Assembly: GCA_019635715.1 (NCBI GenBank)
Contig: JAHBYY010000001.1
Location: 103,097 to 167,096 of the forward strand
DNA: 64,000 bases
DNA from: Rhizobiaceae bacterium
GTDB lineage: Bacteria; Pseudomonadota; Alphaproteobacteria; Rhizobiales; Rhizobiaceae
Direction: 5' to 3'
The notes below the pieces were generated by a model. That model was not told the origin of the DNA. It searched no databases and saw only the letters and a program-made list of their open reading frames with translations. Position 1 is the stretch's first letter, and the number at the start of each line of letters is the position of its first letter. Shown here in pieces: positions 1 through 64,000 of the stretch. A program made the translations under genes and the position numbers.

Positions 1-873
1 TATGCGGCGAACACGATGGGCGTGCTGCGCATCGCCTTCCTCAATGCCGCGATCATCGACTTCTTCGCGTCGCTGTCGATCGCGATGCTCGCCGTGTTCC
101 TCGGCCTCGGCCATCTCGGACTGGCGAGGATCCCCGGCTTCCACGATCTCGCCCTGTGGCAGAGCCTGTTCATCCTGATGGTCGCGCCGGACTTCTTCGC
201 GCCGTTCCGCCGTTTCTCGGAGCAGTACCACGCCAAGGCGGAAGGCGAGGCCGCGGCGGCCGCGCTCGACCGGCTGTTCGAGGACGGCAGCCGGCCGTTC
301 ATGCCCTCCGGGATGCTCGAGGCGATCGACCTTTCGCTGCCCGCCGCCGGGATGGTGGCGATCACCGGACCGAGCGGCGCCGGCAAGACGACGCTGCTGC
401 GGCGGCTGGCCGGAGTGGACGGGGCGCCCGGCCCGATGAGCGGCGGGCGAGGCAGGCCGTCCTGGATCGGCACCGACAGTTTCGTTGCCGACGGCACGAT
501 CGCCGAAGCGATCGGCTCGAACGCCGACGCAGGCTCCACCCGGCTGGAGCTGGCCGCGCGCAGCGTCGGCCTGCTCGACGATGCGCTTCTGCCGGGCGGG
601 CTCTCGGCGCGCGTCGGGGCGAACGGCGCGTCTCTGTCGGGCGGCCAGCGCCTGCGCATCGCGGTGGCACGGGCGATACTGGCCGACGGACCGATCTACG
701 CGGACGAGCCCACCGCCAAGCTGGATGCGGCGAGCGCGGCTTCGATACGCCGGGCGCTGGCCGACCTTGCCGCTTCCCGCCCGATCGTCGTGGCGACGCA
801 TGATCCGAAGCTCGCGGCGCTGGCGCTTCGCCGCATCGACCTGCCACCGCGCGTCCACGGAGCCGCGACATGA
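1..873 (+). CDS. cydD: ABC exporter subunit CydD, C-terminal part (5' end outside window)
   Basis: This is the end of an ABC exporter half that, with CydC, moves glutathione/cysteine across the inner membrane and supports cytochrome bd assembly. The frame is open from base 1, so the first membrane helices lie upstream. Visible are a last membrane stretch (about nt 40-190) and a full nucleotide-binding domain: Walker A GPSGAGKTTLL near nt 367, signature LSGGQRLRIAVARAI near nt 634, Walker B ending DEPTAKLD near nt 705, and the switch His in ATHD. The stop overlaps the cydC ATG by four bases. The CydD assignment rests mainly on pairing with the degenerate CydC-like partner; another heterodimeric exporter half is possible. 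Confidence 0.82.
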   Translation, partial: YAANTMGVLRIAFLNAAIIDFFASLSIAMLAVFLGLGHLGLARIPGFHDLALWQSLFILMVAPDFFAPFRRFSEQYHAKAEGEAAAAALDRLFEDGSRPFMPSGMLEAIDLSLPAAGMVAITGPSGAGKTTLLRRLAGVDGAPGPMSGGRGRPSWIGTDSFVADGTIAEAIGSNADAGSTRLELAARSVGLLDDALLPGGLSARVGANGASLSGGQRLRIAVARAILADGPIYADEPTAKLDAASAASIRRALADLAASRPIVVATHDPKLAALALRRIDLPPRVHGAAT

Positions 874-2456
874 CGGAGACGGGACCAGGATCTTCTCGCC
901 GCTGGTGGCGCTATACGATTGCCTTGGCCGTTGTGGCGCTGCTCTGCGCCGTGTTGCTCGGCGGTCTCTCCGCCTGGTTCCTCGGCTCGGTGGCGCTGGC
1001 CGGGCTCACCGCCGCCGCCCTCACCTTCAACTTCCACATCCCCGGCGCCCTGATCAGGCTGCTGGCGATCGGCCGCACAGCGGCCAGGTATGGCGAACGG
1101 CTTGCCGGCCACCGGGCCGCGCTGACCGACCAGATCGAACACCGGGTGCGGCTGTTCGCCTCGATGGCGCAGGCCCCCGCCCTGCGCCGGGCCGGCTGGC
1201 AGTTCGGCGACCAGGCGACGCTCACCGACTATGTCGACGACGTGGAGGACGTCGATTTTTCGCGGCTGAGGGCCGGCATCCCGACGTTTACCGGCGCTGT
1301 CGGCGTCGCGCTGGGTCTCGCTGCGACGGCATGGGTCGCGCCTCTCGCCCTGCCGCCGATCCTCGCCATGCTCGCCGCGTCGATGCTCGCGGCGCGAAGC
1401 CTGGCGCATGCCGACGCCGTGTGGACCCGCAGCCGCACGCTGCGCCGCGAGGGTGCCGGCACTCTGGGAAGCGCGCTGACCTCGGTCGTGCCGCTCAAGG
1501 CAGAAGGCCTGTGGGGGCCACTGTCGCACGAGGCGATCGAGACCTTGTCCCGCGCCGATCGCGACTACGCGGCGCTGCGCCGCCGGCAGGCCTCGGTCGA
1601 TGCGCTGGCCAGCCTGCTCGGCCCGCTGTCGGCGCTCGGCGTCGTGGCGGCGGCCTGGCTCGCCGGCGGGCGCGGCGCGGCGCTGCTTCTGCCGGTCTTC
1701 GTCGCCTTCGGCTGGCTGGCGCTCGGCGAGGCAGCCGCGGGCCTGTCGCGCATCCCCGTCGCCTGGCTGCGGCGGCGGACAGCGTCGCGGGAGCTCGGCC
1801 GGTGGGGCTCAGCGTCCCCACCCGCCGATGGTTCCTGCGAGCCCCATGGCGCCCCGCAGGCGCTTCGGCATCCGGGATTGCAGCGGCTGGCGCCCGACGG
1901 CCGCGGGCTCGGCCGTCCGCTGCCGATCATCCTCGAAGTCGGACGCCCGACGGTGCTCGTCGGCGCCAGCGGCAGCGGCAAGACGAGCCTGCTGAAGCAG
2001 ATCGCCGGCTGGATCGGCGAGGATCCGATGGAGACGAGGGGCGGTCGCCTCGACGCGGCACCGCGCATGGCGCTCAGCGTGCTCTGCCTCCACGACGCGG
2101 CGATCCTGGCGGACACGGTTCGCGCCAATCTCTTTGCCGGCACCCGCGCCGACGAAGACCTCTGGGCGGCGCTGGCGGCGGTCGAACTGACCGATCGCAT
2201 CATCGAGGCCGGCGGGCTGGACGGCTGGGTGACGCAGTCGACCTTGTCGCTCGGCGAAGCGCAACGGCTCAACCTGGCGCGCGTCCTTTTGTCCGACCGG
2301 CCGATCGTGCTTCTCGACGAGCCCACCGAACATCTGGACGCCGATCAGGGACGGCGAATCCTCGACGCAATGGTCGGGCGGCTTGCCGACCGGATCCTGG
2401 TGCTCTCAAGCCATACGGTCGGTGGGCTGCCGCAGGGCCGCACCATCGTGCTTTGA
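870..2456 (+). CDS. cydC: ABC exporter subunit CydC
   Basis: This is the partner half-transporter of CydD, with an N-terminal six-helix membrane domain (about residues 15-290) and a C-terminal ATPase domain. Walker A is GASGSGKTSLL; Walker B is IVLLDEPTEHLD. The signature is degenerate (LSLGEAQRLNLAR instead of LSGGQ), as is common when one of the two ATP sites is non-consensus. At 528 residues it is a little shorter than typical CydC. It starts in an ATGA overlap with cydD. No cydAB genes follow: the next gene is on the opposite strand, so the bd oxidase genes, if linked, must lie upstream of the window. Confidence 0.87.
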   Translation: MTETGPGSSRRWWRYTIALAVVALLCAVLLGGLSAWFLGSVALAGLTAAALTFNFHIPGALIRLLAIGRTAARYGERLAGHRAALTDQIEHRVRLFASMAQAPALRRAGWQFGDQATLTDYVDDVEDVDFSRLRAGIPTFTGAVGVALGLAATAWVAPLALPPILAMLAASMLAARSLAHADAVWTRSRTLRREGAGTLGSALTSVVPLKAEGLWGPLSHEAIETLSRADRDYAALRRRQASVDALASLLGPLSALGVVAAAWLAGGRGAALLLPVFVAFGWLALGEAAAGLSRIPVAWLRRRTASRELGRWGSASPPADGSCEPHGAPQALRHPGLQRLAPDGRGLGRPLPIILEVGRPTVLVGASGSGKTSLLKQIAGWIGEDPMETRGGRLDAAPRMALSVLCLHDAAILADTVRANLFAGTRADEDLWAALAAVELTDRIIEAGGLDGWVTQSTLSLGEAQRLNLARVLLSDRPIVLLDEPTEHLDADQGRRILDAMVGRLADRILVLSSHTVGGLPQGRTIVL

Positions 2457-2482
2457 GCGCGGCAGCGGCGCCAGGCCGTGGC

Positions 2483-3592
2483 TCAGGCGCTGTTCCTCAG
2501 GATATCCAGATATTCAGCCTGCGTGGCGATGCGCGGATTGGTGGCGTGGCAATGATCCTTCAGCGCCGCGTGGCTGATCGCCTCCATCATCGCGTCGGTG
2601 ACGCCCATGGCGCGCAGACCGGCCGGCATGCCGAGGCGCATGTTGAGGTCGGCGATCACCCGGTCGGGCTCGCCGCCCATGCGCCGGGCCAGCATGTCCC
2701 ATTTGCCGCCGATCGCGGCGCGGTTGAACCGCAGCACCTCGGGCATCAGCACCGCGTTGAGCGTGCCGTGATGCAGGTTGAGCTCGCGGATCGCGCCGAG
2801 CGGATGGGTGAGCGCATGAACGGCGCCGAGCCCCTTCTGGAAGGCCATCGCGCCTTCCAGGGCGCACACCATCATGTCGCGGCGCGCCGCCTTGTCGGAG
2901 CCGTCGGCCTTCGCCCGTTCGATGGCGCCCAGGCCGCAATCGAGCCCATGCAGGGCTATGGCCTCCGCCGGCGGATTGAAGCTCGGCGCCATGTAGGTCT
3001 CGAGGCAGTGCGAGATCGCGTCCATGCCGGTCGCGGCGGTCAGGCCGGGCGGCAGGCCGTAGGTGAGTTCCGGATCGCAGAGCGCGATGCTCGGCAGGTT
3101 GAAGGGCGAGAGGATCCCCAATTTGCGCCCGTCGGCGGTGATGATGACGGCGGCGCGTCCGACCTCCGATCCCGTACCCGAGGTCGTCGGAACGGCGATC
3201 AGCGGGCAGATCCGGCCGTGGATCTTCGTCACGCCGCCGTTGACGGCGGCATATTGCCCGAGCGGCGGCGGATGGCCGGTGAGGATGCGCACCGCCTTGG
3301 CCAGGTCGAGCGAGGACCCGCCGCCGATGCCGACGATGCCGTCGCATTTGCCGGCCTCGTAGACGGCATGGGCCCGCAGCACGGAGTCTTCTGTCGGATT
3401 GGCCGGCGTGCCGTCGAAGACGACGGCCCCCGGCACCATCGCCTTGACCCGCTCGATGAGTCCCGTCCTCACCAGGCCCGCATCCGTGGCGATGAGCGGG
3501 CGCGACACGCCGAGATCGGCCAGGAAGGCGGGAAGGCGGGCGAATTCGCCCTCTCCGAACTCGATGCGCGTCAGGTAGTTGATGGTACTCAC
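2483..3592 (-). CDS. Iron-containing alcohol dehydrogenase
   Basis: A group III metal-dependent alcohol dehydrogenase that oxidises or reduces an alcohol/aldehyde with NAD(P). The Rossmann-like half carries GIVGIGGGSSLDLAK and the cofactor segment VPTTSGTGSEV. The metal-binding half carries TGMDAISHCLE, AVHALTHPLGA and LHHGTLNAVLMP, where the Asp and His ligands are expected. I chose a GTG start at 3592 preceded by GGAG; a TTG at 3610 would add six residues. It is the last gene of the leftward sugar-acid operon, 79 nt after the lactonase-like gene, so it may handle the short aldehyde released by the aldolase encoded upstream. Substrate is inferred from context only. Confidence 0.87.
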   Translation of the reverse strand: MSTINYLTRIEFGEGEFARLPAFLADLGVSRPLIATDAGLVRTGLIERVKAMVPGAVVFDGTPANPTEDSVLRAHAVYEAGKCDGIVGIGGGSSLDLAKAVRILTGHPPPLGQYAAVNGGVTKIHGRICPLIAVPTTSGTGSEVGRAAVIITADGRKLGILSPFNLPSIALCDPELTYGLPPGLTAATGMDAISHCLETYMAPSFNPPAEAIALHGLDCGLGAIERAKADGSDKAARRDMMVCALEGAMAFQKGLGAVHALTHPLGAIRELNLHHGTLNAVLMPEVLRFNRAAIGGKWDMLARRMGGEPDRVIADLNMRLGMPAGLRAMGVTDAMMEAISHAALKDHCHATNPRIATQAEYLDILRNSA

Positions 3593-3671
3593 CGGCGGTG
3601 CTCCACGCAATTCGATCCGGCGCGTTCCATTGTTCCCATGGCAGCGCCCCGGCGAGGTTTTGAATCAGGGC

Positions 3672-5639
3672 TCAGGAGAAGCTTATGCGAGCCACCGCAT
3701 AGGCGTCGAGGGTGACCGTACTCCCCCGAAACGTCGCCGCGGCGGTGTCGAGCCAGGCAGGATCTGTGGTCAGCCGTTCGAACCCGCTTGCGTCGACCAT
3801 GGCAAGCTTGGCGCTGCCGGGCAGCGGGCCGAACTCGGCAGTGACGGCCGCGGCGGTGAGGTTGGCGATCCAGAGCTGGGTGCGCCCGTCCCTGCGGACG
3901 GCGAGCGCCTCGACCGACCCTTTCGAGGACAGGGTTGTGTCGAGCAGCTCGGCACCGCTGAGCGCGGCCAGACCCGCGATCACATGGAAACCGGGATAGA
4001 CCGGCCTGCCCGACAGCTCGTCGAAATAGGGCGCGGAGGCATCGCTCCTGCGATGGATGTGGCCGAACGGACCGCTCGGGGCGCCGAGCGCCAGCCAGTC
4101 GACGCCGCCGCGGGCGCAGGCCGCGATGTAGCCCAGCATCCAGGCGGCATTGAACAGGCCGCGCTGCCGAGGGTCGATGTCGCTCAGGCAGACGCGGACA
4201 TTGTCCGGGTTCGGCGTGTTGGCCTTGCCATACGGGTTCTCGCGGCAGCCGAGCTGGCTCGGACCGATGCGATATTCGAGCCCTCCGCCCATGAAGGCGC
4301 GGGTCGACAGGATCTGGTAGGGGATCGCCTCGTTGGTCTCCATCACTGAAATGTCGTCGGCCGCATGCACGTTCGGGCAGGTGGTGTGGCTGACATAGTC
4401 GAGAGGGCCGGCCGGCGGCCGCTTGCGGTTGAGTTCGGTGAAGTAGGCGGCCATGCCACCGCCGATCCTGGCGCGCGGGAACGCCTTGCGCGCCGCGGCA
4501 TAAGTCTGCTCGAAGCTCGGCATCTCCGGCCAGGGCTGGTCCGGCTGATAGGATTTCAATTCCTGCTGCGGAAAGACCGAGACGGCGGCGGGCGACAGGC
4601 CAGCCTCGGACGTGGCGCGCGCCAGCCCCGCCAATTCGCCGTCCGGGTCCATCGAACCGAGAGTGATGATCTCCAGGACGATTTCGGCGCCGGTAGCCTC
4701 CCCCAGCTTGCGATAGGCGTCGAGTTCGGCCCTGCCGTGCCCCTTGCGCAGATCGACCTCGCAGACCAGCCAGCGCGGCGCGAGCCGCCTGACGAGCTCG
4801 ATATTGTCCAGTGCGAAGCCTGCTTCCGCGGCCTGCACGCCGAGCCCGAGGCGCGGCATGGCGCCGATCTTCTCGCCGACCGACACCGAGACCGCGCCGC
4901 CGGCGTCACCGCCTGCCGCCTCGGGGAGCGGACCTGAAATCGACAGGCGGACCGACTGGACGATCTTTTCGCCCTTGGGCAGCGTGTAGGGCCAGGGCTT
5001 GGTCAGCGGCCGGATGTAGGTCTTGTAGGAGGCGTCCGACCAGTTGCGCTGGTCCTCCGTCTCGTAAGCGTCACCCTCCATGGTGCAGGTCGCCCAGCAG
5101 CCCGGCGCGATCTCGTGCGACATGGCGCGCACGTCCTTGAAGGGGCAGCGCGGGTCGATCGTCTCGGGAAAGCGCGCCTCGCGGCGCGAGCCGTCGGTGT
5201 GCTCGATTCGGACGGGCGACCCTGCCACGCCCTCCACCGGATGAAGAACGATGAAGCCGGTGCGGTTGGTGAGCACGTCGGTCAGCGGCTCGGCGACCGC
5301 GTCGAAAGCGAGCGAGCCGTCGCTGCCGCCGGTGATCGTCGCATCATAGACGAGGTCGCGCTGGGCGTCGCGGCAACGGCCGCGGTAGCGCACCGAGAAG
5401 CTGTCCGCACCTTCCTCGATCTCCAGCCCGGTGATTTCCGGCGAAAAGGTTCCCCAGTTCTCGTTGCGCACCAGGAACGAGATGCCGCGCAGCACCTCGA
5501 TGCCGGCGATGCGGACATAGCGCAGGCCGCCATTGTCGAACTCGACCGAGAGCGGACCGGCTTTCAGGGTGCGCAGCGGCGGATCGACCTGCTCCGTGCC
5601 GCAAAGAATGATGGCTCGCGAAACCATGGACGCCCCCAT
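3672..5639 (-). CDS. apnL: D-apionate lactonase family protein
   Basis: The protein resembles D-apionate lactonase (ApnL), which opens D-apionolactone in degradation of the branched plant sugar apiose. I recognise the family from blocks such as LKAGPLSVEFDNGGLRYVRI, RNENWGTFSPEI, FIVLHPVEGVAGSPV and the acidic run EDQRNWSDASYKTY. It has an N-terminal beta domain (about residues 1-260), a TIM-barrel-like middle and a C-terminal beta domain, about 655 residues as expected. The start is uncertain (ATG at 5639 or 5627; neither has a clear ribosome site). No ApnO, OiaC or RuBisCO-like partner is nearby, so the substrate may be a related lactone. Confidence 0.78.
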   Translation of the reverse strand: MGASMVSRAIILCGTEQVDPPLRTLKAGPLSVEFDNGGLRYVRIAGIEVLRGISFLVRNENWGTFSPEITGLEIEEGADSFSVRYRGRCRDAQRDLVYDATITGGSDGSLAFDAVAEPLTDVLTNRTGFIVLHPVEGVAGSPVRIEHTDGSRREARFPETIDPRCPFKDVRAMSHEIAPGCWATCTMEGDAYETEDQRNWSDASYKTYIRPLTKPWPYTLPKGEKIVQSVRLSISGPLPEAAGGDAGGAVSVSVGEKIGAMPRLGLGVQAAEAGFALDNIELVRRLAPRWLVCEVDLRKGHGRAELDAYRKLGEATGAEIVLEIITLGSMDPDGELAGLARATSEAGLSPAAVSVFPQQELKSYQPDQPWPEMPSFEQTYAAARKAFPRARIGGGMAAYFTELNRKRPPAGPLDYVSHTTCPNVHAADDISVMETNEAIPYQILSTRAFMGGGLEYRIGPSQLGCRENPYGKANTPNPDNVRVCLSDIDPRQRGLFNAAWMLGYIAACARGGVDWLALGAPSGPFGHIHRRSDASAPYFDELSGRPVYPGFHVIAGLAALSGAELLDTTLSSKGSVEALAVRRDGRTQLWIANLTAAAVTAEFGPLPGSAKLAMVDASGFERLTTDPAWLDTAAATFRGSTVTLDAYAVARISFS

Positions 5640-61689: not shown

Positions 61690-61763
61690 GCGGGTATGAT
61701 GTAATGGTAGCCTGTCAGCTTCCCAAGCTGAACGCGCGGGTTCGATTCCCGCTACCCGCTCCA
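61690..61763 (+). tRNA. tRNA-Gly (CCC)
   Basis: A complete 74-nt tRNA with encoded CCA. The acceptor stem pairs GCGGGTA (61690-61696) with TACCCGC (61753-61759); the anticodon stem TCAGC/GCTGA encloses loop TTCCCAA, giving anticodon CCC; the T arm is GCGGGTTCGATTCCCGC. It reads GGG glycine codons. An integrase gene starts 166 bp downstream, so the 3' end probably serves as the attachment site of the island. Confidence 0.97.
61740..61763 (+). other. Probable attachment site (attL) in the tRNA-Gly 3' end
   Basis: Tyrosine integrases commonly insert at the T arm and acceptor end of tRNA genes while restoring the tRNA. The integrase here is immediately downstream and directed away from the tRNA, the usual layout. 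The matching direct repeat would lie beyond the right edge, so this site is inferred, not demonstrated. Confidence 0.4.
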
Positions 61764-61929
61764 CTGGACCCCTTCACCCGCTCCACTTTAAACGGGGCGT
61801 GTAGTCAGGATTTGGAAAGTCTGTCATTGAATTCAATGACATGACCAACCACTACAATCCATTTCGGTCCTGTGACGCGGTGAGTTGAGCGAAACTGTCT
61901 AACATTTCGTCCAACACCCGGCGCCGTCC

Positions 61930-63243
61930 ATGTCTGAGTTTCTTACCCTTCGCGGTTCCATCTGGCACTTCGTCCGGCGCGTTCCGGCGGAGTTTTCCGA
62001 ACTCGACCGCCGCGGCATTGTCCGCCACTCCACACGCATCCGCATAGCTGATGACCGTGTCGGCCGACGCGCCGCCCGCGTTGCCCAGAAGCTGAACGAG
62101 GCGCTTGAACTTCACTGGAAGTCCCTCGCGACCGAGCGTCCGACGTCGAGCCTGTCGCCGTATGACGATGCGCGCCGCCGCGCACGTGAACTGGGGTATG
62201 ACTACGTCCCGAACGAAAAGCTGATCGTGCTGCCGCTTGAGCGGATCCTCGAGCGGCTTGAAACCCTCGTCTCCAAAGGCTTGGTGCAGGACCCTGGCGC
62301 GCGAACGGCGGTGCTGGGAACGCGGAAGCCCGATGCGTTTCTGCTGTCCCAGCTCTTCGAACAGTTTGAGGCGGCAACAAAGGACGAAACTCGTGACTTC
62401 TCACCGGATCAGCGTCGCATCTGGCGAAATGGCCGAAAGCGCACAGTCGAGAGCTTTGTGAAGGTCGTCGGTGACAAACCGGTTACGGCGATCACCGAGG
62501 CCGACGGTATCGACTACACGGAGTGGTGGCGCGAGCGCGTCATAGAAGAGAGCATGGCTGTCAAGAGCGCCAACAAGGACATCGGCCAGCTCAGCAGAAT
62601 GCTGAAGGAGATGAGCATTCGTCGCCGTCTCAACCTGCCGGACATTTTCAAGGGTTTGCGGCTGCGGGGCGAGGTCGAGAAATCGCGCCAGCCTTTCGAT
62701 CCCTGGTTCATCCAGGCGAAGCTGATTGCCGGTTCGGCCCTTGAAGGCTTGAACGAAGATGCCCGCTTCGTCCTCTACGTCATGATGGACACCGGCCTGC
62801 GGCCATCGGAGGTCGTGAACCTGCGCGAGGGGACGATCTTCCTAGATGCAAAGATCCCCTACGTGAAGGTCGAAGCCGATGGGCGGCGGCTGAAGACTGA
62901 AGATTCGGCCCGCGAAATCCCGCTGACCGGAATCGCGCTCGCCGCCATCCGGCAAAGGCCCACTGGCTTCCCGAAGTACCGCGATAGGGCAACGGTCCTG
63001 TCGGCGACGGTCAACAAGTACCTCAGCGAAAACGGCTTGCGTCCGACGAAGGACCATACCCTCTACTCTCTTCGTCACAGCTTCAAGGATCGGCTGGTCG
63101 CCATTGAAGCACCCGACAGCTTGATTGACAGCCTGATGGGGCACCGGACCTACAAGCCCAAATACGGGCGCGGGCCCTCGCTCGAACTCAAACTCAAATT
63201 TCTGGAACGGATAGCATTCACCGTTCCCGACCGGTTAGCGTAG
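61930..63243 (+). CDS. Tyrosine-type site-specific integrase
   Basis: A 437-residue recombinase of the phage/island integrase family. The N-terminal arm and core-binding domain (about residues 1-255; LSEFLTLRGSIWHFVRRVP-like start, ITEADGIDYTEWW) is followed by the catalytic domain: first Arg in MMDTGLRPSEVVNLREG, second Arg with following His in LYSLRHSFKDRL, then SLMGHRTYKPKYGRG supplying the third His and a likely nucleophile Tyr. The first His of the HxxR box is replaced by Tyr. Together with the tRNA it marks the left end of an integrated element. Base composition is lower in G+C than the host genes. Confidence 0.92.
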   Translation: MSEFLTLRGSIWHFVRRVPAEFSELDRRGIVRHSTRIRIADDRVGRRAARVAQKLNEALELHWKSLATERPTSSLSPYDDARRRARELGYDYVPNEKLIVLPLERILERLETLVSKGLVQDPGARTAVLGTRKPDAFLLSQLFEQFEAATKDETRDFSPDQRRIWRNGRKRTVESFVKVVGDKPVTAITEADGIDYTEWWRERVIEESMAVKSANKDIGQLSRMLKEMSIRRRLNLPDIFKGLRLRGEVEKSRQPFDPWFIQAKLIAGSALEGLNEDARFVLYVMMDTGLRPSEVVNLREGTIFLDAKIPYVKVEADGRRLKTEDSAREIPLTGIALAAIRQRPTGFPKYRDRATVLSATVNKYLSENGLRPTKDHTLYSLRHSFKDRLVAIEAPDSLIDSLMGHRTYKPKYGRGPSLELKLKFLERIAFTVPDRLA

Positions 63244-63443
63244 TCGGCAAGAAGGCGTTGCGCGCGCGCCTTCGTCCCTTCCCGGCGCTGTAGTTCGTTT
63301 AGTTCCAACTCGAGGCGTTCAAAGAGGGGAATGTGAACGTCACCATCGACCTCAAGGAAGTACGCGAGCAACAGCAGCGCGCGCTGAAGACGCTCTTCGA
63401 GTGAGATCTGATCGTGCGTGGGGTGATGATCGTTGGTCGTCAT
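63150..63443 (-). CDS. Small hypothetical protein downstream of the Argonaute gene
   Basis: A 97-residue, mostly helical and charged protein (LEERLQRALLLLAYFLEVDG, LFERLELELNELQRREGTKA). I do not recognise a family. It lies on the Argonaute strand 110 nt past that gene's stop and overlaps the integrase 3' end by 94 nt in antisense. The ATG at 63443 lacks a good ribosome site; the frame is open back to a TTG at 63557 that overlaps the Argonaute stop. It could be an accessory protein of the Argonaute system or an island gene of its own. Confidence 0.5.
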   Translation of the reverse strand: MTTNDHHPTHDQISLEERLQRALLLLAYFLEVDGDVHIPLFERLELELNELQRREGTKARAQRLLADYANRSGTVNAIRSRNLSLSSSEGPRPYLGL

Positions 63444-63553
63444 GAGAACTTGCCAATGAAAGCCCCCATTGAACGGCCGCTTTGACCTCCGAACAAGCGA
63501 CATGCCTGGGAGAGGATGGGAAAGGATTGGATTCGAACTGCGAACGCTCTCGA

Positions 63554-64000
63554 TCAAATATAGAACCGAAATGGCAGCGGGGGTGCCTCACGTCCCCGGG
63601 GCGAGGCAAGAAGGATTTCCCCGACACGGTCTGCAAACTTGAGCGTTACAGGTAAGCCGCTGGCATAATCGCATGAATTGTAGTTCACCTTGGTGAGACC
63701 AAGAATGTCTTGCATTATTTGTATCAGATCAGATTCATCACGATCTGGCAGTAAGCCTTGCTCCTGATTGATTTCGATCAGCAGCGGCTTCGGTGTTTCA
63801 AAGCCAGGATATGTGCGCAGCCGTGGTGTATAGCCGGTGGTCCATAGATAGCCCTCTCGCCTGGAAAGTGTCACGGCCGTTCCTCTAAGCACCGGAACGT
63901 CAGCATCGGGGCGAAGAAGCCGGAGATCTTGTGAAGTACGGATGCGAACGCCTACAAAACGGCGTGTCTCCGCTGGAATCGCGCTGCGGAAGCCCTCCCA
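63554..64000 (-). CDS. Prokaryotic Argonaute, C-terminal PIWI part (5' end outside window)
   Basis: The frame is open from the window edge to a TGA at 63554-63556 and gives 148 residues matching the end of a long prokaryotic Argonaute: VGVRIRTSQDLRLL, PVLRGTAVTLS, LWTTGYTPRLRTYPGFETPK, PLLIEI, DILGLTKVNYNSC, GLPVTLKFADRVGEILL and the ending PLPFRFYI. The last two blocks are the closing PIWI segment. The Asp in FADRVGE (codon 63629-63631) falls where I expect the fourth catalytic residue (His807 in human AGO2), so an active nuclease is possible; the other three lie outside. Codon use is less G+C-rich than the host. It is probably guide-directed defence against foreign DNA or RNA. Confidence 0.85.
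   Translation of the reverse strand, partial: WEGFRSAIPAETRRFVGVRIRTSQDLRLLRPDADVPVLRGTAVTLSRREGYLWTTGYTPRLRTYPGFETPKPLLIEINQEQGLLPDRDESDLIQIMQDILGLTKVNYNSCDYASGLPVTLKFADRVGEILLASPRGREAPPLPFRFYI

Follow-up and report, generated by a model that had tools for sequence, protein, structure and literature searches.

The locus at the end of the contig

The window, which is the whole stretch of 64,000 nucleotides that was analysed, corresponds to bases 103,097-167,096 of contig C1. At its right edge, the tail of a prokaryotic Argonaute (pAgo) gene lies next to an integrase gene and a tRNA gene, and the following features are found there.

61690..61763, plus strand: tRNA-Gly (CCC), a probable attachment site of an island
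61930..63243, plus strand: tyrosine recombinase/integrase of 437 aa (Pfam Phage_integrase PF00589, E 7.6e-9), convergent with the Argonaute gene
63150..63557, minus strand: open frame of 135 aa that overlaps the Argonaute stop and may not be a gene
63554..64000, minus strand: tail of a short prokaryotic Argonaute with PIWI domain, 148 C-terminal residues and the stop; the 5' part is lost at the contig end

The Argonaute frame enters the window from the right end on the minus strand, stays open for 148 residues, and has its stop codon at 63554-63556. Since C1 is 167,096 bases long and terminates at window base 64000, the contig itself, and not merely the window, breaks off inside the gene. The assembly consists of 151 contigs, with an estimated completeness of 85.16%. 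The blocks quoted in the first-pass annotation, namely LWTTGYTPRLRTYPGFETPK, LTKVNYNSC, PVTLKFADRVGEIL, and an aromatic-Ile C-terminus (FRFYI), were all found in the 148-residue frame.

The surroundings differ in base composition from the rest of the window. The G+C content is 54.1% in the Argonaute fragment and 58.2% from position 61764 to the window end, against a baseline of 610 overlapping 447-bp pieces of window positions 1-61000 with a median of 68.0% and a minimum of 56.4%. Together with the tRNA-Gly and the integrase, this low G+C content fits an integrated island. The tyrosine integrase is probably the integrase of the island on which the Argonaute is presumed to lie, and the Argonaute itself would have arrived horizontally on this tRNA-Gly-linked element. 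A second copy of the tRNA-Gly 3' end was sought in the assembly with 34 bases (at most two mismatches) and 22 bases (at most one mismatch), and both searches returned only the tRNA itself. The 135-aa frame belongs to no family in Pfam or NCBIfam and has a relative in none of the compared loci. The stretch 61690-63243 is a likely integration site; its visible cargo starts with the Argonaute and breaks off where the contig does. On a conjugative Sphingobium plasmid, a relative with 59% identity is flanked by one recombinase gene on either side.

Identity and relatives of the Argonaute fragment

The PADLOC profile pAgo_I, which represents class I (short) Argonautes, matches the fragment at E 3.8e-55 over profile positions 357-493 of 493. 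Moreover, 11 distinct sequences of the PDB set match it at E<=0.01. The best five of these (8fex, 8qlo, 8j7s, 8ifk, and 8j8h; E 1.9e-34 to 1.5e-31) cover 147-148 of the 148 residues, the next matches are four further short Argonautes of 471-485 aa (E 3.2e-16 to 6.5e-14), and a long Argonaute, VbAgo with two sequences, follows only at E 7.9e-4. The same five entries contain TIR-domain chains, which match the partner protein of a relative; 8fex, 8ifk and the like are entries that we take to be the SPARTA systems of Maribacter polysiphoniae and Crenotalea thermophila. The first reading, a prokaryotic Argonaute of which the C-terminal PIWI part is visible, is confirmed by the PADLOC and SPARTA-type PDB matches. 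On sequence matches to solved structures, the fold of the fragment is settled, and judged from PADLOC, the PDB and 76% identity to a contig of Methylopila jiangsuensis, the Argonaute assignment is far beyond chance.

Profile libraries of general scope were less informative. No Pfam family matched the fragment at E<=1, and the Piwi model PF02171, proposed at first reading as a check, had no match in the genome of the window. Pfam-A likewise gave no match at E<=0.1 for any of four full-length relatives, so that the missing Piwi match is insensitive as a test and does not refute an Argonaute. NCBIfam has a model neither for the fragment nor for the Argonaute of M. jiangsuensis or its partner.

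The first-pass annotation had framed the protein as a candidate for comparison with long-A and long-B Argonautes, and this framing is not supported, as the relatives are short and class I by PADLOC. In the close group, the Argonaute frames are mostly 506-519 aa long, which leaves no room for a PAZ domain; the longer mechanically predicted frames are mostly upstream extensions, and one (L063) is a fusion. For the window protein, the class I assignment rests on its last 148 aa and on these lengths of its relatives.

A scan of contigs yielded 18 related loci with 58-76% identity, the nearest being that of M. jiangsuensis (L002). In the order-wide search, 28 of 397 genomes, own genome counted, had a match at E<=1e-3, and in 15 of the 28 it was below 1e-30. 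Outside the own genome there were 29 matches, and gene context was extended for 20 of them; those left without extension (L039, L041, L042, L044-L048, and L050; E 5.8e-16 to 8.8e-4) are weaker ones. In a plasmid collection, 99 of 72,556 records matched at E<=0.1, 82 of them over at least 80% of the query, and 51 of the 99 are predicted to be conjugative. The initial remark that such Argonautes are rare is therefore only partly true: a minority of genomes of the order carries a match, and short pAgos are reported as the main kind encoded by Alphaproteobacteria (PMC6299218).

The genes upstream were surveyed at 38 loci with longer flanks, which make 37 distinct loci, as one (L052) repeats L002. 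A homolog of the TIR-APAZ protein of one relative, L004, lies directly upstream of the Argonaute or is fused to it (L063) in 31 of the 37 (L002-L019 and L053-L065). At L008 the contig carries only the APAZ part, and at L057 and L060 the TIR-APAZ homology is divided between two frames. The L004 protein itself matches TIR-domain chains of the PDB at E 2e-52 and Pfam TIR_2 at 1.4e-14. No homolog of it was found at the other six loci (L066-L071); the upstream proteins profiled at four of them (all but L069 and L071) have SMEK, Schlafen/AlbA_2, DUF4365, and SIR2 domains. The SIR2 and DUF4365 kinds are published under the names SPARSA and SPARDA. At L066 and L067, short Argonautes of the same order have SMEK-domain and Schlafen/AlbA_2-domain proteins directly upstream.

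A tree of 31 rows was built from the region covered by the 148-aa fragment; it omits TtAgo and seven Sphingomonas rows that were identical duplicates. A branch with support 100/99 parts 25 rows, namely the window and 24 TIR/APAZ-linked Argonautes, from six others; long branches in the outer group call for caution. Within the larger set, the closest partner of the window row is Methylopila L002; the support of 93/86 is moderate and weaker than that of the main split. The window fragment is closely akin to TIR-APAZ-linked short Argonautes. With E 1.9e-34 to SPARTA-type Argonaute chains and its place on the 100/99 branch, it very probably belongs to a SPARTA system, as the C-terminal part of its short Argonaute, whose partner would be a TIR-APAZ protein.

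The comparison with known systems points in the same direction. Like the SPARTA proteins in 8fex and 8ifk, the window protein has a C-terminal PIWI match over 148 residues, the guide-binding N-Y-N, and a C-terminal Ile, and its relatives have a TIR-APAZ gene followed by the Argonaute gene with overlapping ends (ATGA at three of four junctions examined, TGATG at the fourth). Unlike them, it sits on an alphaproteobacterial branch and is known from its Argonaute tail alone, which is 6-9 residues longer, around NQEQGLLPDRDESD, than the same stretch of its three nearest relatives. M. jiangsuensis L002 shares 76% identity with it and is nearest in the tree, but has a complete TIR-APAZ/Argonaute pair where the window has only the tail. 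SIR2-, DUF4365-, SMEK-, and Schlafen-type systems of the order also place an effector gene directly upstream of a short pAgo, but they fall across the 100/99 branch from the window.

Catalytic residues, proposed mechanism and rival readings

In an alignment with TtAgo (sequence from the Thermus plasmid pTT27), an Asp of the window protein, in KFADRV, aligns with D660, the last of what we take to be the catalytic positions of TtAgo (D478, E512, D546, and D660). This upholds the by-eye alignment to human AGO2, which had put the Asp at the fourth of the catalytic positions. The fragment holds only this position, as the first three fall beyond the contig end. Among 31 relatives of the group aligned with TtAgo, the D478 position is V in 30 and L in one, and the D546 position is R, K or Q in all; the E512 position is variable and loosely aligned, with E in two (L054 and L064), and the D660 position is D in 23, N in five and R in three. 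The fourth-position Asp is also kept in the solved chains 8fex and 8qlo (FADK), and 8ifk and 8j8h have Asn. This Asn agrees with Asn484 of a SPARTA protein, for which Val284, Tyr328, Arg362, and Asn484 are given at the tetrad positions (PMC11156904). Short pAgos are described in a passage of PMC10474274 as having neither a DEDX tetrad nor nuclease activity.

Since 23 of the 31 relatives combine the fourth Asp with degenerate first and third positions, this Asp says nothing about activity, and the suggestion that the enzyme is catalytically active is left unsupported, the more so as the SPARTA-type chains 8fex and 8qlo share the residue. A long Argonaute with slicing activity of its own on DNA or RNA, and with positions 1-3 hidden beyond the contig end, is scarcely credible. 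Such an enzyme would have to carry a class I profile among relatives mostly of 506-519 aa, to differ from all 31 group members in the first and third catalytic residues, and to be a far weaker match to the long VbAgo than to the short chains. TtAgo, a long-A Argonaute, resembles the window protein in the PIWI match and in the Asp at D660, but has a PAZ domain and the D-E-D-D tetrad, whereas the relatives of the window protein have V/L at position 1 and R/K/Q at position 3. Judged from its relatives and the literature, the window Argonaute most likely cannot cut DNA. A fourth-position PIWI Asp in short Argonautes must accordingly not be taken to indicate that they are active nucleases.

In the solved SPARTA, the guide/target contacts that fall inside the stretch of the fragment are Lys395, Asn439, Asn466, Asn468, Arg481, and Ile507, of which Asn468 and Ile507 are reported as belonging to the site of Mg2+ and the 5'-phosphate (PMC11156904). 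Counted along the PDB alignments in 8ifk numbering, which fits Asn484 of the same source, the residues of the window protein at the six positions are Arg, Lys, Asn, Asn, Lys, and Ile. Three are identical (Asn466, Asn468, and Ile507), and the others are two Lys/Arg swaps (Lys395 to Arg and Arg481 to Lys) and one change from Asn to Lys (Asn439). SPARTA is reported to respond to a guide RNA and a target ssDNA by tetramerisation and by hydrolysis of NAD(P)+ in the TIR domain, with Glu77 as catalytic residue (PMC11156904; PMC10474274). Of 20 aligned partners, 18 have the corresponding NADase Glu, those of the three nearest relatives included; it is missing from the nuclease-fused L058 and L059. The alignment covers 20 of the 31 partners, and the other 11 are eight near-identical Sphingomonas copies, L008 (which is without TIR), and the split L057 and L060.

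The best reading of the window system is that of a guide-RNA-directed DNA sensor of a SPARTA NADase, with partner and mechanism taken from its relatives and the literature. The intact protein would have about 510 aa and a MID-PIWI architecture, and its gene would share an operon with a TIR-APAZ gene immediately before it, past the end of the contig. Partner and Argonaute would associate as a heterodimer in which the Argonaute holds the guide RNA. Pairing of this guide with invading single-stranded DNA would then lead the heterodimers to tetramerise, whereupon the TIR domain would degrade NAD(P)+, and the infected cell would be stopped or killed. On this account, the window gene would add one truncated alphaproteobacterial SPARTA to a known and structurally solved family.

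The missing parts of this operon were sought in the own assembly. The full-length L004 Argonaute found only the window fragment, and the single other hit of the searches in this genome, on contig C119 (E 0.339), is at chance level. The TIR-APAZ protein of L004 found no homolog in the 85%-complete assembly, nor did that of L002, although the L002 query recovered its target from all four control genomes. The TIR-APAZ partner is missing from the assembly, which does not imply absence from the organism. As the MID domain, three catalytic positions, and the partner gene all lie outside the assembly, we infer the operon rather than observe it.

This gap leaves room for other accounts of the locus. 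A short Argonaute working with another effector, be it SIR2, DUF4365, SMEK, Schlafen or a nuclease-TIR-APAZ variant, would be in keeping with a partner gene outside the contig and with the presence of such partners beside more distant relatives in the same order. It is nevertheless very unlikely, given that the 100/99 branch parts the window from the six loci without TIR-APAZ and that the nearest relatives (L002-L004) have plain TIR-APAZ proteins with the NADase Glu. There is equally little chance that the partner of the window is an exchanged effector instead of a plain NADase, comparable to the rhizobial and roseobacterial fusions of a nuclease with a Glu-less TIR that are described below. 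Similarly, a pseudogene remnant at the edge of a decaying island would account for the failure to find either the partner or the N-terminal part in the assembly, but the 148 residues are open, extend to the C-terminus of the family, and keep the conserved blocks, and the contig ends inside the gene in an assembly that is 85% complete, so that this origin is highly improbable as well.

Operons with a nuclease-like domain and other variants among the relatives

Several SPARTA-like operons of rhizobia, Roseibium and roseobacters carry a nuclease-like (Mrr-like) domain fused in front of TIR-APAZ. This arrangement is found at L058, L059, and L060 and at the plasmid loci L082-L089, the plasmid sample consisting of eight of nine records with at least 80% coverage; the plasmid copies are not part of the tree. 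The NADase Glu is replaced in all 11 nuclease-fused proteins (by Asp in nine and Leu in two), and a nuclease-type motif, DGR...QAK, is kept. Among partners without the nuclease domain, the Glu is kept in 25 of 25, which comprise the 18 mentioned above and seven further loci. These seven include L074 and L075, whose identity to L058 over TIR-APAZ is 52% and 49%, respectively.

The nuclease label is weak, as the Pfam family Mrr_cat matched L058 only, at E 0.0044 and 17.6 bits, under the 21-bit cut-off. Similar domains that stand alone on plasmids are annotated as restriction endonuclease. Nine of the nuclease-fused proteins have frames of 639-649 aa, and the remaining two, L060 (441 aa) and L087 (466 aa), are shorter. 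A class-wide search of 385 genomes for more such fusions gave matches in eight, in none of which both domains were covered. The entries returned by a literature search contained no mention of a loss of the NADase Glu in nuclease-TIR-APAZ proteins. The replaced Glu and the retained motif suggest that the killing function of the nuclease-fused operons has moved from the NADase to the nuclease. The survey of relatives points to an exchange of killing function within such operons, which makes these loci a better target for study than the window gene.

Another variant is L063 (positions 293-3703, minus strand), from a genome of the family to which the window also belongs, where TIR-APAZ and the short Argonaute share a single frame of 1136 aa. 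One TIR-APAZ protein is reported to be itself a short pAgo (PMC6299218). The L063 fusion carries about 195 additional N-terminal residues.
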